The notes below the pieces were generated by a model, which saw only the letters and a list, made by a program, of their open reading frames with translations, did no database searches and was not told the origin of the DNA. From Polaribacter sp. KT25b (GTDB taxonomy: Bacteria > Bacteroidota > Bacteroidia > Flavobacteriales > Flavobacteriaceae), in assembly GCF_900105145.1 (NCBI RefSeq), contig NZ_LT629752.1, positions 2,080,001 to 2,144,000 on the forward strand: a stretch of 64,000 nt of DNA, in the 5' to 3' direction. The position numbers and the translations under genes were made by a program. Positions 27,106 through 40,394 of this stretch are shown here, in pieces. Each line of letters begins with the position of its first letter. Positions within the stretch are counted from its first letter, which is position 1.

Positions 27106-27644
27106 TAATTTTTATTTACAATGAATCTAACCTCCGTTCCATCTTCTTTAATTTTTTCTATAATTATTTCAGCAGTACTGTTAAAATATTCAAATGTTTT
27201 ATTCATTAACCCCAAACCAAAATGATGCATAGCTCTACTAGATTTGTAGTTCATAATTAGCCTTTTCTCACTCTTTTCTTCTATTAAAAAAGTTGGCAAT
27301 TCTGCATCGGGATAAATTTTTCTAACTTCTACATGAATATGGTTTTCAATAGAAGATAACATTTCCATAGGATCTTTATAAGTATCTAAAAGACCTGGAT
27401 AACTTCTTTCAATTACACTAAAAAAATGTTCACCATAAATTAATAATAAATTATCGATAGATATTCCTGATTTATCACTTAGATTTTTAAGAAGTTGAAG
27501 CATTTCAGAAAAACTATACGTGCCAATAGAAGTATAAACTCCTTCTGATTCTAGTGTTGAATTAAGTATAATTTCATCAACCATTTCAATACCAAACTTA
27601 TCTTCTACTAAATCTAAAAACTCTGTAAAAACTATACCTTTCAT
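27105..27644 (-). CDS. H-NOX heme nitric-oxide sensor
   Basis: The 179-aa stand-alone H-NOX domain begins MKGIVFTEFLDLVEDKFG, a family hallmark. The proximal heme ligand is probably His104, seven residues before the Tyr of the IYP motif, as in soluble guanylate cyclase. The propionate-binding YxSxR motif is Tyr133, Ser135, Arg137 in NYKSSR. It should bind b-type heme and sense NO in the cytoplasm. Whether a distal tyrosine for O2 binding exists cannot be decided here. It overlaps its neighbours by 1 bp on both sides, forming a REC / H-NOX / kinase transcription unit. Confidence 0.92.
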   Translation of the reverse strand: MKGIVFTEFLDLVEDKFGIEMVDEIILNSTLESEGVYTSIGTYSFSEMLQLLKNLSDKSGISIDNLLLIYGEHFFSVIERSYPGLLDTYKDPMEMLSSIENHIHVEVRKIYPDAELPTFLIEEKSEKRLIMNYKSSRAMHHFGLGLMNKTFEYFNSTAEIIIEKIKEDGTEVRFIVNKN

Positions 27645-28054
27645 TATTTTCGAATAAAATCATTAACACTCCAATACTTCATTATTTTATTTATCTTTAT
27701 TAGATAATCTTCATCATTTAAAGATTTTAAAAGATAGCCAGCAATACCTAATTTATAACACTTTTTAATATCATTAATATTATTAGATGTGGTTAAAACA
27801 ATAATTGGTATGTGCTTTATTTGAGAAAGATTTTTAACATTTGTTAAAAAATCAAAACCATTTATATCTGGCATATTCAAATCTAACAAAATAATATCAG
27901 GAAAACAATTTTCTAATATAGAAAGTGCTTCTTTGCCATTATTAGCAAAAATAATAGTGAAATCACTAAACTTAGAAGAGAGTGCTCTTTTAAATTTAAA
28001 AATTTCCATTTCATCATTTTCAATTAATAAAATTTTTACTTTTTTTTGCAACAT
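27644..28054 (-). CDS. Single-domain response regulator of the H-NOX operon
   Basis: The 136-aa protein is a lone receiver domain: acidic pair in IENDE, phospho-acceptor Asp58 in IILLDLNMPD, a TTS motif in IVLTTS, and the conserved Lys in GYLLKS. It has no output domain, so it acts by phosphotransfer or protein contact. It is the first gene of the overlapping REC/H-NOX/kinase unit, whose stop-start junctions are TAATG. This order makes it the probable cognate partner of the kinase at 25390-27105. Confidence 0.88.
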   Translation of the reverse strand: MLQKKVKILLIENDEMEIFKFKRALSSKFSDFTIIFANNGKEALSILENCFPDIILLDLNMPDINGFDFLTNVKNLSQIKHIPIIVLTTSNNINDIKKCYKLGIAGYLLKSLNDEDYLIKINKIMKYWSVNDFIRK

Positions 28055-34054: not shown

Positions 34055-34231
34055 TTAATCTTTAGTTGGTTTTTCTTTTTTATCTTTTATTAATTCATCA
34101 TCAAACAACATACGAACAGATGGCGTATAAGAATCGTCAAATTGCCCAGTCTTAACTGAATAAATAAATGCGATAAAAAATAAGATGGCTACTAGTATAC
34201 TAATAGTTAGTAGTAGGTATATTACGCTCAT
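34055..34231 (-). CDS. ccoS: CcoS, cbb3 oxidase maturation protein, 58 aa
   Basis: The frame from ATG at 34231 to TAA at 34055 encodes 58 residues beginning MSVIYLLLTISILVAILFF, with one membrane helix followed by SVKTGQFDDSYTPSVRMLFD. The GQFDD-x-P pattern just after the helix is characteristic of CcoS, required for cofactor insertion into cbb3 oxidase. It is the first gene of the cco structural operon and has an FNR-type promoter directly upstream. Confidence 0.9.
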   Translation of the reverse strand: MSVIYLLLTISILVAILFFIAFIYSVKTGQFDDSYTPSVRMLFDDELIKDKKEKPTKD

Positions 34232-34259: not shown

Positions 34260-34302
34260 CAAAAATAATATTGATAGAATAATTAAAACATGACATTTAT
34301 CA
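34260..34302 (-). promoter_or_regulatory. FNR-like box and -7 element of the ccoS-ccoNOQPGH operon
   Basis: TGACATTTATCA (34291-34302) matches TGAY-N4-ATCA, close to the FNR/CRP consensus. It sits inside a perfect 13-bp inverted repeat (34281-34293 and 34300-34312). On the minus strand TATTTTTG (34267-34260) fits the TAnnTTTG -7 element. The box centre is 36.5 bp from the last base of this element, that is about -41.5 from the expected start, the class II activation position. Confidence 0.75.
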
Positions 34303-34323: not shown

Positions 34324-34355
34324 AAAATATCATGATTTTAAAACCATGATATTTT
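34324..34355 (-). terminator. Terminator after the first 55-aa membrane protein gene
   Basis: An 11-bp perfect inverted repeat (34324-34334, 34345-34355) with a 10-nt loop lies 24 bp past the stop at 34379 and is followed on the minus strand by seven U. It isolates the small genes from the ccoS promoter. Confidence 0.85.
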
Positions 34356-34378: not shown

Positions 34379-34546
34379 TTAAAAAATAATTGACTCAAAT
34401 AGGAAACCAGCACTAATAAAAAGGATTACTATAGAACAAATGTCTAAAAAATTTATTTTTGAATCGGTTAATTGACTTAAATCGTTATAATCGTTAGTAT
34501 CTTCTAATTCAGTATAACTACTTGGGGTTTGGTATACATTTTTCAT
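34379..34546 (-). CDS. 55-aa single-helix membrane protein, tandem copy A
   Basis: The frame from ATG at 34546 to TAA at 34379 encodes 55 residues: a polar N-terminal half (YTELEDTNDYNDLSQLTDSK) and one C-terminal membrane helix beginning INFLDICSIVILFISAG. It is 43/55 identical to copy B (34675-34842), with differences clustered in the N-terminal half. Both copies keep DYNDLS and the whole helix, which indicates selection on protein. It has its own FNR-like promoter (34601-34643) and terminator. I do not recognise the family. Its place next to the cbb3 operon suggests a small oxidase-linked or low-oxygen-induced membrane protein. Confidence 0.8.
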   Translation of the reverse strand: MKNVYQTPSSYTELEDTNDYNDLSQLTDSKINFLDICSIVILFISAGFLFESIIF

Positions 34547-34600
34547 GGGGGATGAATTTTATGGTTATTAAATAAAACTTTATATAAAGTATTTACAATA

Positions 34601-34643
34601 TAAAGGTAATCTTGATTGATTAATTAAAATATGATATTCATCA
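34601..34643 (-). promoter_or_regulatory. FNR-like box and -7 element of small protein gene A
   Basis: TGATATTCATCA (34632-34643) is followed on the minus strand by TACCTTTA (34608-34601), a one-mismatch TAnnTTTG. The centre-to-element distance is 36.5 bp, identical to that at ccoS and ccoI. Confidence 0.7.
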
Positions 34644-34674
34644 TAGTTTAAATTTTTATAAAAAATTGATGTTT

Positions 34675-34842
34675 TTAAAAAATAATTGACTCTAATAAGA
34701 AACCTGCGCTAATGAAAAGTATCACTATAGAGCAAATATCTAAAAAATTTATTTTTGAATCACTTAATTTGCTTAAATCGTTATAATCGCTAGAATCTTC
34801 GAATTCACTATAACCGTTAGGGTTTTGGTAAGTATTATTCAT
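34675..34842 (-). CDS. 55-aa single-helix membrane protein, tandem copy B
   Basis: The frame from ATG at 34842 to TAA at 34675 encodes 55 residues with the same architecture as copy A: polar half with YSEFEDSSDYNDLSKLSDSK, then helix INFLDICSIVILFISAG and end LLESIIF. The start codons of the two copies are 296 bp apart. The 18 bases before both ATGs are nearly identical and end in CCCCC, unusual in this AT-rich genome. No FNR-like box was found upstream of this copy. Family and function are unknown. Confidence 0.8.
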   Translation of the reverse strand: MNNTYQNPNGYSEFEDSSDYNDLSKLSDSKINFLDICSIVILFISAGFLLESIIF

Positions 34843-34982
34843 TGGGGGATGAATTTTATGGTTGTTAAAATAATATTGATAAAAGTAAGAAAAACATATT
34901 TAACTACCAACAAAATATAATTCTTTTTTATACCTGATAAAAAAGTTAAACAAAACTTGTAATTTCATAAAATTAAAATTTA

Positions 34983-36344
34983 TTAAATTGTCATAGAAAA
35001 CAACTTTGTTTCTGGCTGTTTCTTTTGTAATTTTTTATCAAAAGCCATACAAATATTTCTTACATAAGCTCTTGCTGAATCTGGAACTGACAATGAATTT
35101 TCTTTAATGATAACCAAACCATCATTTTGCATTTCTTGCAACAAGCTTAAATGAGATTCAATATTTTTTATTTTAGTAGATTTATCATCCCACGAAGTGG
35201 AAAAATTACACATAATATTTAAAATATGCTTTCTAATAATTTGATCTTCTTCTGATAAAATATGACCTCTAAAAACTGGGATTTCTCCTGAATTTACAAT
35301 CTTTTGATATTCTTTTACAGTTTTTACATTTTGTGCAAATCCGTACCAAGAATCAGAAATAGCAGACATTCCTAAACCAATCATTAATTGGGTTTTATTA
35401 GATGTATAACCCATAAAATTTCTATGCAAAGTTTTACTAATTGTTGCTTTATATAATGAGTCTGTTTTTAAAGCAAAATGATCCATACCTATTTCTTCGT
35501 AACCCAATTCAAAAAAAAGTTCTTTTCCTATTTCGTAAAGCTCTCTTTTTTCTTCATTTTTTGGTAAATCTTTTTCATTAAAACCTCTCTGCCCTACACC
35601 TTTTACCCAAGGAACATGAGCATAACTGTAAAAAGAAATTCTGTCTGGTTGTAATTCTTTTGTTTTTTTGATGGTATATAAAACGTTCTCTTTGGTTTGA
35701 AATGGTAAACCAAAAATTAAATCGTGACTTACTGATGTATAACCAATTTCTCTAGCCCAATTTGTAACGTTTTTAACTTCTTCAAAAGGTTGAATTCTAT
35801 GAATTGCTTGCTGAACTTTTTCATTATAGTCTTGTACCCCAAAACTAACTCTTGTAAAACCAACATCAAACAAAGTTTGTAATTGCTCTTTTGTGGTATT
35901 ACTTGGATGACCTTCAAAACTAAATTCTGATTCTGGATGTTTTATTGCATTCTCAAACAATCCATCAATTAAATATTTTAAATTTTCTTTAGAAAAAAAA
36001 GTTGGTGTTCCTCCTCCTAAATGCAACTCTTTTACAATTGGTTTTTCATCAACCAAATTAATATATAATTTCCATTCTTTTAAAACAGTTTCTATATAAT
36101 CTTCTTCAACTTCGTGACGTTTTGTAATGTGTTTATGACACGCGCAAAACGTGCATAAACTCTCACAAAAAGGCAAATGAATATATAAACTTATACCTTC
36201 TTTACTATTACTTTCTATAAATGATTGTTTAAATGTTTCAATCCATTTTTCTTTGGTAAAAGTTTCATTATCCCAAAAAGGTACCGTTGGATAACTCGTA
36301 TATCTTGGCCCTGGAATATTATATTTTTGTACTAATGATTTCAT
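34983..36344 (-). CDS. hemN: Oxygen-independent coproporphyrinogen III oxidase (radical SAM)
   Basis: The 453-aa protein has the HemN motif YIHLPFCESLCTFCACHKH, with the CxxxCxxC [4Fe-4S] radical SAM site and the additional Cys. HLGGGTPTFFS and SFGVQDYNEKVQQAIHR follow, and the C-terminal HemN domain ends near residue 450. It makes protoporphyrinogen IX when oxygen is low, fitting its place among cbb3 oxidase genes. The start at 36344 gives MKSLVQKYNIPGPRYTSYPT, the normal N terminus. No FNR-like box was seen in the 184-bp upstream gap. Confidence 0.93.
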   Translation of the reverse strand: MKSLVQKYNIPGPRYTSYPTVPFWDNETFTKEKWIETFKQSFIESNSKEGISLYIHLPFCESLCTFCACHKHITKRHEVEEDYIETVLKEWKLYINLVDEKPIVKELHLGGGTPTFFSKENLKYLIDGLFENAIKHPESEFSFEGHPSNTTKEQLQTLFDVGFTRVSFGVQDYNEKVQQAIHRIQPFEEVKNVTNWAREIGYTSVSHDLIFGLPFQTKENVLYTIKKTKELQPDRISFYSYAHVPWVKGVGQRGFNEKDLPKNEEKRELYEIGKELFFELGYEEIGMDHFALKTDSLYKATISKTLHRNFMGYTSNKTQLMIGLGMSAISDSWYGFAQNVKTVKEYQKIVNSGEIPVFRGHILSEEDQIIRKHILNIMCNFSTSWDDKSTKIKNIESHLSLLQEMQNDGLVIIKENSLSVPDSARAYVRNICMAFDKKLQKKQPETKLFSMTI

Positions 36345-39624: not shown

Positions 39625-39667
39625 CAAATTTCCAATAAGAATCGATTTTAAAATATGATATTTATCA
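39625..39667 (-). promoter_or_regulatory. FNR-like box and -7 element of ccoI
   Basis: TGATATTTATCA (39656-39667) lies between the divergent ccoI and Crp/Fnr genes. On the minus strand GAAATTTG (39632-39625), a one-mismatch TAnnTTTG, is 36.5 bp from the box centre, the same distance as at the other two sites. Confidence 0.7.
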
Positions 39668-39707: not shown

Positions 39708-40394
39708 ATGAGTAAATGTGAACAATGTATTGTACGCAAATTTAATTCTTTAAAAGAACTAACCAAAGACGAATTAATTAGAATTACTGCTTGTAAAAGT
39801 TCTAAAAATATAAAAAAAGGTGACGTTATTTTTAAGGAAGGCGATCATTTAAACGGTATTTTTTGTATAAAAGATGGTGTCTGTAAAGTTTCTAAAATGA
39901 GTGATAACGGCAGAAATCAAATTATAAATTTAATACAAAAAGGAAATATACTTGGTGAAAGAAGTTTAATTTCTGATCAAACATCTAATTTAACAGCAAT
40001 TGCGCTAAGCGATATGTCTGTTTGTTTTATACCTAAAGAAGAAATTATTAGAGATCTTGAAAATAATCCTAATTTTACGCTAGACCTTTTAAAAACAATG
40101 GCAAATTCTTTAAAAAATGCCGATAATTTAGTGGTAGGAATGGCTCAAAAAAGTGTAAAACAACGTTTAGCAGATACGCTTTTACTTTTGCAAAAAAAAT
40201 TTAGTACCAATAGTAAAGGCGCAATAAATATTCAACTTTCTAGAGAAGATATTGCAAATATAATTGGTACTGCAACCGAATCTGCAATTCGTCTATTATC
40301 AGAATTAAAAAAGAAAAAAATTATTGGTTTTGTTGGTAAAGATATTACCATTTTAGACGATAAAGAACTAGAAAAAATTGCACAAGGTTTCTAG
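39708..40394 (+). CDS. Crp/Fnr-family transcriptional regulator with N-terminal cysteines
   Basis: The 228-aa protein has an N-terminal CxxC (Cys4, Cys7) and Cys29, a cyclic-nucleotide-binding-like domain (about residues 25-140), a dimer helix, and a winged helix-turn-helix (about 150-215) with LSREDIANIIGTATESAIRL. The E-x3-R spacing in ESAIR matches the recognition helix of FNR/CRP. Clustered cysteines allow an oxygen-labile Fe-S cluster, but this is not proven. It is divergent from ccoI and near three FNR-like boxes, so it likely controls the cbb3 cluster in low oxygen. Confidence 0.88.
   Translation: MSKCEQCIVRKFNSLKELTKDELIRITACKSSKNIKKGDVIFKEGDHLNGIFCIKDGVCKVSKMSDNGRNQIINLIQKGNILGERSLISDQTSNLTAIALSDMSVCFIPKEEIIRDLENNPNFTLDLLKTMANSLKNADNLVVGMAQKSVKQRLADTLLLLQKKFSTNSKGAINIQLSREDIANIIGTATESAIRLLSELKKKKIIGFVGKDITILDDKELEKIAQGF

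Follow-up and report, generated by a model that had tools for sequence, protein, structure and literature searches.

Two tandem genes for 55-residue membrane proteins, lying between hemN and ccoS in Polaribacter sp. KT25b, are almost certainly real, and sequence comparison makes them members of what appears to be an undescribed, lineage-restricted and fast-changing family of 38-55-aa proteins with a single predicted helix. The window (the whole stretch analysed, 64,000 nucleotides of contig NZ_LT629752.1) carries both on its reverse strand (Table 1). What was computed is the selection on the pair's coding sequence, the wider family, a C-run leader common to its members, and a promoter of copy 1 laid out like that of ccoS. 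The reading that we favour, that the proteins are condition-induced, translationally gated membrane modulators, has as a whole mechanism slightly less than an even chance of being right.

Table 1. Features of the hemN-ccoS region and its candidate regulator (positions in the window)
Feature	Position	Strand	Basis or detail
ccoS (context)	34055-34231	-	FixS and TIGR00847 above cut-off
Fnr-type promoter of ccoS	34260-34302	-	35-nt geometry as in copy 1
Terminator-like hairpin 3' of copy 1	34324-34355	-	11-bp stem then T run; read by hand
Copy 1, 55-aa tiny membrane protein gene	34379-34546	-	ORF; dN/dS 0.16 against copy 2; one helix (20-54) predicted for paralogue copy 2
Possible hairpin TTCAT-CCCCC-ATGAA with copy 1 start codon	34542-34556	-	fold prediction; hand-counted coordinates
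Leader AAATTCATCCCCC immediately 5' of copy 1 ATG	34547-34559	-	one of two exact genome occurrences
Fnr-type promoter of copy 1	34601-34643	-	box TGATGAATATCA (34632-34643), then TACCTTTA starting 35 nt after box start
Copy 2, 55-aa tiny membrane protein gene	34675-34842	-	ORF; dN/dS 0.16; helix 20-54, mean pLDDT 70
Possible hairpin ATTCAT-CCCCCA-ATGAAT with copy 2 start codon	34837-34854	-	fold prediction; hand-counted coordinates
Leader AAATTCATCCCCC one base 5' of copy 2 ATG	34844-34856	-	other exact genome occurrence
hemN (context)	34983-36344	-	TIGR00538 above cut-off
Crp/Fnr-family regulator, candidate activator of copy 1	39708-40394	+	cNMP_binding and HTH_Crp_2; NCBIfam Fnr models below cut-off only

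As the initial annotation had described, the interval between hemN and ccoS holds two 55-aa ORFs identical at 43 of 55 residues (78%), and the FNR-like promoter and terminator that it assigned to one copy are both found at copy 1. The interval is 751 nt long and the pair spacing is 296 bp; dinucleotide shuffling of it produces at least two sense-strand ATG ORFs of 50 aa or longer in 5 of 2000 trials. The copies differ by 13 synonymous changes over 30.3 sites and 13 non-synonymous changes over 134.7 (Fisher p = 4.3e-5), which shows purifying selection on the pair and gives a ratio far from the neutral value of 1 that had been named as grounds for rejection. The AlphaFold model of copy 2 (alignment A4) has a low-confidence N-terminal part ahead of its one helix. 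The claim that the pair stands outside recognised families also held, since neither it nor the family has a credible match in Pfam, NCBIfam, PHROGs, PDB or Rfam. Weak rows do occur (DUF5362 for one of 27 members at E 0.019, and four PHROGs at no better than E 0.024). Phage and plasmid records give no family match, and searches of the open-licence literature listed nothing on this protein family or on a C-loop leader of this kind.

Homologues beyond this strain, whose lack would have counted against the pair, come from profile searches of genomes of the genus (in GTDB a merged Polaribacter/Tenacibaculum group that includes T. finnmarkense, G018). Profiles A1, A3 and A5, together with a reading of the hemN-ccoS gaps, place the family in 10 of 166 genus genomes, a count that leaves aside other weak profile matches, most of them without inspection. 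The carriers are the window genome (G000), P. glomeratus (G149), P. dokdonensis (G024), G004, G078, G047, G085, G042, G096 and G032. The family subgroups match one another by profile (A1-A3 at 3.6e-7, A1-A5 at 1.4e-6, A3-A5 at 2.5e-9); reversed-alignment controls in such comparisons reach E 2.3e-5 with A3, 4.4e-5 with A5 and 0.026 with A1. A single-sequence search of 146 genus genomes is convincing in the window genome alone; five weak matches from the single-sequence and profile searches were inspected or set aside. Among the matches listed for 397 sampled genomes of the taxonomic family (at most 18 candidates scored each), the window genome is again the only convincing one, and P. glomeratus and the other carriers are absent from those matches; G200, the one inspected of 10 other genomes listed, has no such ORF. 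Eighty named cco loci from elsewhere contain no member recognisable by the end motif (two chance rows) or by a C-run plus helix. Three protein searches across 5.8 billion proteins return 4, 13 and 22 sequences, the window's own counted in, and the organism names among the matches listed are all Polaribacter, with most rows carrying no name (row P0008 bears the source label FliO). Pairwise codon tests were listed for 15 family pairs and computed for 13, of which 8 (the window pair and seven more) have a significant synonymous excess; the five that lack it include G149a-b (0.94), a-c (1.06), b-c (0.91) and G032a-G149c (0.73). This pattern indicates selection that is clear for the copies at the cco locus and weaker in the young array.

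The C-run ahead of both start codons is, like the wider family, an addition to the initial annotation. The exact 13-mer leader occurs twice in the 3.95-Mb genome, both times at the pair, and all five occurrences of a longer leader pattern with ATGAAA in 166 genomes precede family ORFs. A run of at least four Cs (C4-C6) lies within 20 nt before the ATG in 21 of 23 family copies versus 7 of 379 ATG ORFs that served as background. The latter were 120 aa or longer and came from fetched genus loci, some of them chosen for their C-runs, so that the background rate is inflated. The two family copies that differ, in G004 and G078, have the C-run 3' of the ATG. (The hemN-ccoS gap of these two genomes, L182 and L183, also has a second conserved ORF of 46 aa, MKFK...FSGMAKM, which has C6 before its ATG and adjoins the tiny gene.) The flanks of the C-run are complementary and often put the start codon in the 3' arm of a stem (TTCAT/ATGAA, ATTT/AAAT, ATAGT/ACTAT, ATAG/CTAT); in five leader classes just 2 or 3 pairs form, and the start codon is not clearly involved. 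Fold prediction leaves the C-run unpaired (at least 0.9) in 19 of 22 copies, and puts the AUG below 0.2 unpaired in 13 of 22 only. Swapping flanks among 18 distinct copies attains the mean stem of the real leaders in 5 of 5000 cases, and among 20 leaders (two of them from another kind of protein) in 0 of 5000; when the commonest leader class is cut to one (14 leaders), swapping reaches it in 7 of 5000 and full shuffling in 757 of 5000. Support for a stem around the C-run is moderate. Initiation in F. johnsoniae is helped by an A at -3, -6, -12 and -13 (PMC6847099, excerpt), and a C-run at such positions would be expected to lower translation. The leader suggests translation gated by something that recognises C-runs.

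Family genes also stand in tandem arrays (four intact copies and one broken in P. glomeratus, three in G096, one in G047) at one and the same syntenic site, next to a PAS kinase, TonB and either a LuxR-type regulator or receiver proteins. The two G032 copies are scattered. Array units are spaced 282-458 bp apart, and the spacing of the window pair recurs in the first two P. glomeratus array copies. The array promoter is marked by AAG..AAT.RCCTATT, 21 nt 5' of TAnnTTTG, and differs from the Fnr type. With up to two mismatches in ten chosen genomes, this motif has 36 matches in 8 of them (reversed control, 15) and none in the window genome or P. dokdonensis; 10 of its 11 exact matches are at the kinase/LuxR locus. 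Twelve of the 36 units were read in detail. Two (L436 and L447, near 1500) encode proteins of 72-81 aa with two likely helices and a C-run at the start codon, which look unrelated to the tiny family, and one encodes a 114-aa ORF that has no C-run leader. The other nine have no ATG ORF of at least 22 aa before their end, one having a 44-aa ORF past its terminator. These ORF-less units (near 1500 in L419, L424, L431, L442, L425, L433, L430, L444 and L435) mostly end in a GCTAAAC-type terminator at the conserved kinase/LuxR/TonB locus. They are a candidate for an undescribed sRNA family; Rfam returns nine rows for 11 array-promoter loci, all below the gathering score.

Such units would be expected if the family were one of C-loop regulatory RNAs, in which the primary product is the CCCCC RNA, with the tiny ORF as a second function, the siblings pairing with G-rich targets or titrating a C-binding protein under a LuxR-type or Fnr-type driver. 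All nine ORF-less units have a C4+ run within 165 nt, versus 468 of 2771 intergenic-like windows, and the exact promoter matches gather at one locus; since the nine come mostly from one syntenic locus, however, the counts are not independent, and in two of the nine the sole C4+ run is in the terminator. Stems at the C-runs of the ORF-less RNAs (8 runs) do not rise above controls (swap 4510 of 5000, shuffle 702 of 5000), and the tiny ORFs are under codon selection, so we regard this alternative as unlikely. Known systems offer parallels. Csr/Rsm systems use short RNAs with a repeated GGA loop motif that act by titration. The present units and family are like them in their repeated loop motif, short RNAs and adjacent kinase and LuxR-type regulator, and unlike them in that the motif is C5 and not GGA, tiny membrane proteins are among the outputs, and the binding protein is putative. 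The LhrC sibling sRNAs of Listeria are comparable multicopy, two-component-controlled RNA units with C-rich (UCCC) loop motifs; LhrC acts in trans, and a likeness to Csr/Rsm titration systems has been drawn for it (PMC4132741, excerpt). Here kinase/LuxR genes, candidates for the control of the units, adjoin the arrays and a promoter motif is common to the units, but some of these encode a selected membrane peptide, homology to LhrC is not seen as far as Rfam goes (no match at the gathering score), and the window pair has no array promoter.

At the cco locus itself, ccoS is present in 115 of 166 genus genomes, with hemN upstream on the fetched stretch in 104, and the gap between them is shorter than 170 nt in 63 of the 104. 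Between one and three family genes occupy the gap in nine of these genomes, and none in 95; the start of the P. glomeratus copy is masked, and its membership rests on its profile match. A hemN tree (100 rows, four long branches dropped) unites four carriers, the window genome, P. glomeratus, G004 and G078, in a single clade (98/90) and has three changes of the trait. A soluble-looking ORF of 111-112 aa (NWTKKELYTYLFIYCMNAD type) replaces the tiny genes in the gaps of L198, L199, L203, L211, L218, L219, L226, L231 (interrupted), L232, L237 and L239.

All 104 gaps contain a TGAY-N4-RTCA box within the 140 nt that precede ccoS (0.8 expected by shuffling), and 35 nt after the start of the box they have TAnnTTTG (102) or TAnnTTTA (2), the former being the published flavobacterial -7 element (PMC9723704, excerpt). 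The same 35-nt distance recurs at copy 1 and at the P. glomeratus copy, and in copy 1 the box sits at the class position before a -7 element with five of the six fixed bases of TAnnTTTG. Scans of the 200 nt before copy 2, before ten more hemN-ccoS copies and before the two G032 copies find no Fnr box. Box and -7 element as a combined pattern have 44 matches in the strain's own genome versus 0 for the reversed control, and the genes behind several of them were read by eye as UspA, thioredoxin, Hsp20 and dehydrogenases. Fnr-like boxes in the window number 6 against 5.0 expected, i.e. no enrichment, and are meaningful solely through their geometry and place. The cbb3 genes of F. psychrophilum rise under oxygen limitation (PMC9723704, excerpt). 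Because the promoter of copy 1 has the geometry of all 104 ccoS promoters, its expression at low oxygen is likely, and copy 1 very probably belongs to the Fnr-type regulon. A further Fnr-type box at 39656-39667, between ccoI and the Crp/Fnr gene, is 22 nt and not 35 from the regulator's -7 element, and perhaps serves autoregulation. A single-domain response regulator is encoded near the cco cluster (27644-28054), and its relative in G032 (L266 1717-2133, 63% identical) adjoins a tiny membrane protein gene and menE.

The initial annotation had offered two roles, oxidase accessory or low-oxygen membrane protein; the second fits copy 1 very well, and the first fares poorly. An accessory subunit or assembly factor of the cbb3 oxidase would account for the position between hemN and ccoS in nine genomes and for the Fnr-type promoter that copy 1 has in common with ccoS, and the pair does resemble the single-helix cbb3 proteins CcoS/FixS and CcoQ/FixQ in being tiny, in its one helix, in neighbourhood and, for copy 1, in likely low-oxygen control. 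A cbb3 component should, however, be present wherever the oxidase genes are, and the patchy presence at the locus argues against one. The pair further differs from those proteins in having paralogues elsewhere, some beside a two-component system and away from oxidase genes, and in profile: Pfam gives no match to FixS or FixQ, and a CcoS profile (3 sequences only) and CcoN helices reach at best E 0.0085 against the family. We consider such a subunit or factor improbable.

Type I toxins such as Ldr, Hok and TisB are tiny hydrophobic peptides with tandem copies and an occluded start. The window pair are likewise small, hydrophobic, single-helix peptides in tandem units, behind a leader that would hide the start codon, so that a peptide silenced by antisense RNA deserves mention. 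Antisense TAnnTTTG elements, however, number 4 against 9.0 in shuffles of the 22 units, i.e. fewer than by chance (for promoters of the TAnnTTTG type only), and the promoters here are of the activator type; a toxin is a poor prospect. Chance or neutral ORFs, which the small size, the lack of a known family and the dN/dS near 1 in some array pairs might suggest, are hardly credible given codon-level selection in the window pair and seven further pairs, the homologues and the conserved leader.

For condition-induced, translationally gated membrane modulators, the steps would be as follows. Low oxygen would activate the Crp/Fnr-type regulator, and copy 1 would come on together with the oxidase operon. 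The start codon would sit in a small hairpin, where a trans-acting RNA or protein might dock on the C5 loop, and the Cs at -1 to -6 would run counter to the A-rich context that promotes flavobacterial initiation; for both reasons translation would be held back. On release, the peptide would insert as one helix and modulate a membrane partner under low oxygen, and the array relatives would do likewise under their two-component system. Gating by the C-loop is an evenly balanced proposition, and a role of the pair as modulator of a membrane partner is possible but rather doubtful. A larger C-loop network, in which short CCCCC RNAs, driven by the PAS kinase/LuxR-type regulator or independently by the Fnr-type regulator, compete for one putative C-binding factor, itself gating translation of the tiny proteins where the hairpin encloses the start codon, is speculative and on the unlikely side.

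Tiny genes of this kind escape ordinary annotation and single-sequence homology searches. The C-loop network, if true, would amount to an Rsm/LhrC-like logic that works through C5 loops and has membrane peptides as its output. The C-run hairpin at the start codon would be an RNA element in a phylum whose messages have no natural Shine-Dalgarno sequences, and where regulated translation is little understood. The family itself provides a defined set of tiny membrane proteins of marine flavobacteria that appear to be under the control of low oxygen and perhaps of a two-component system.
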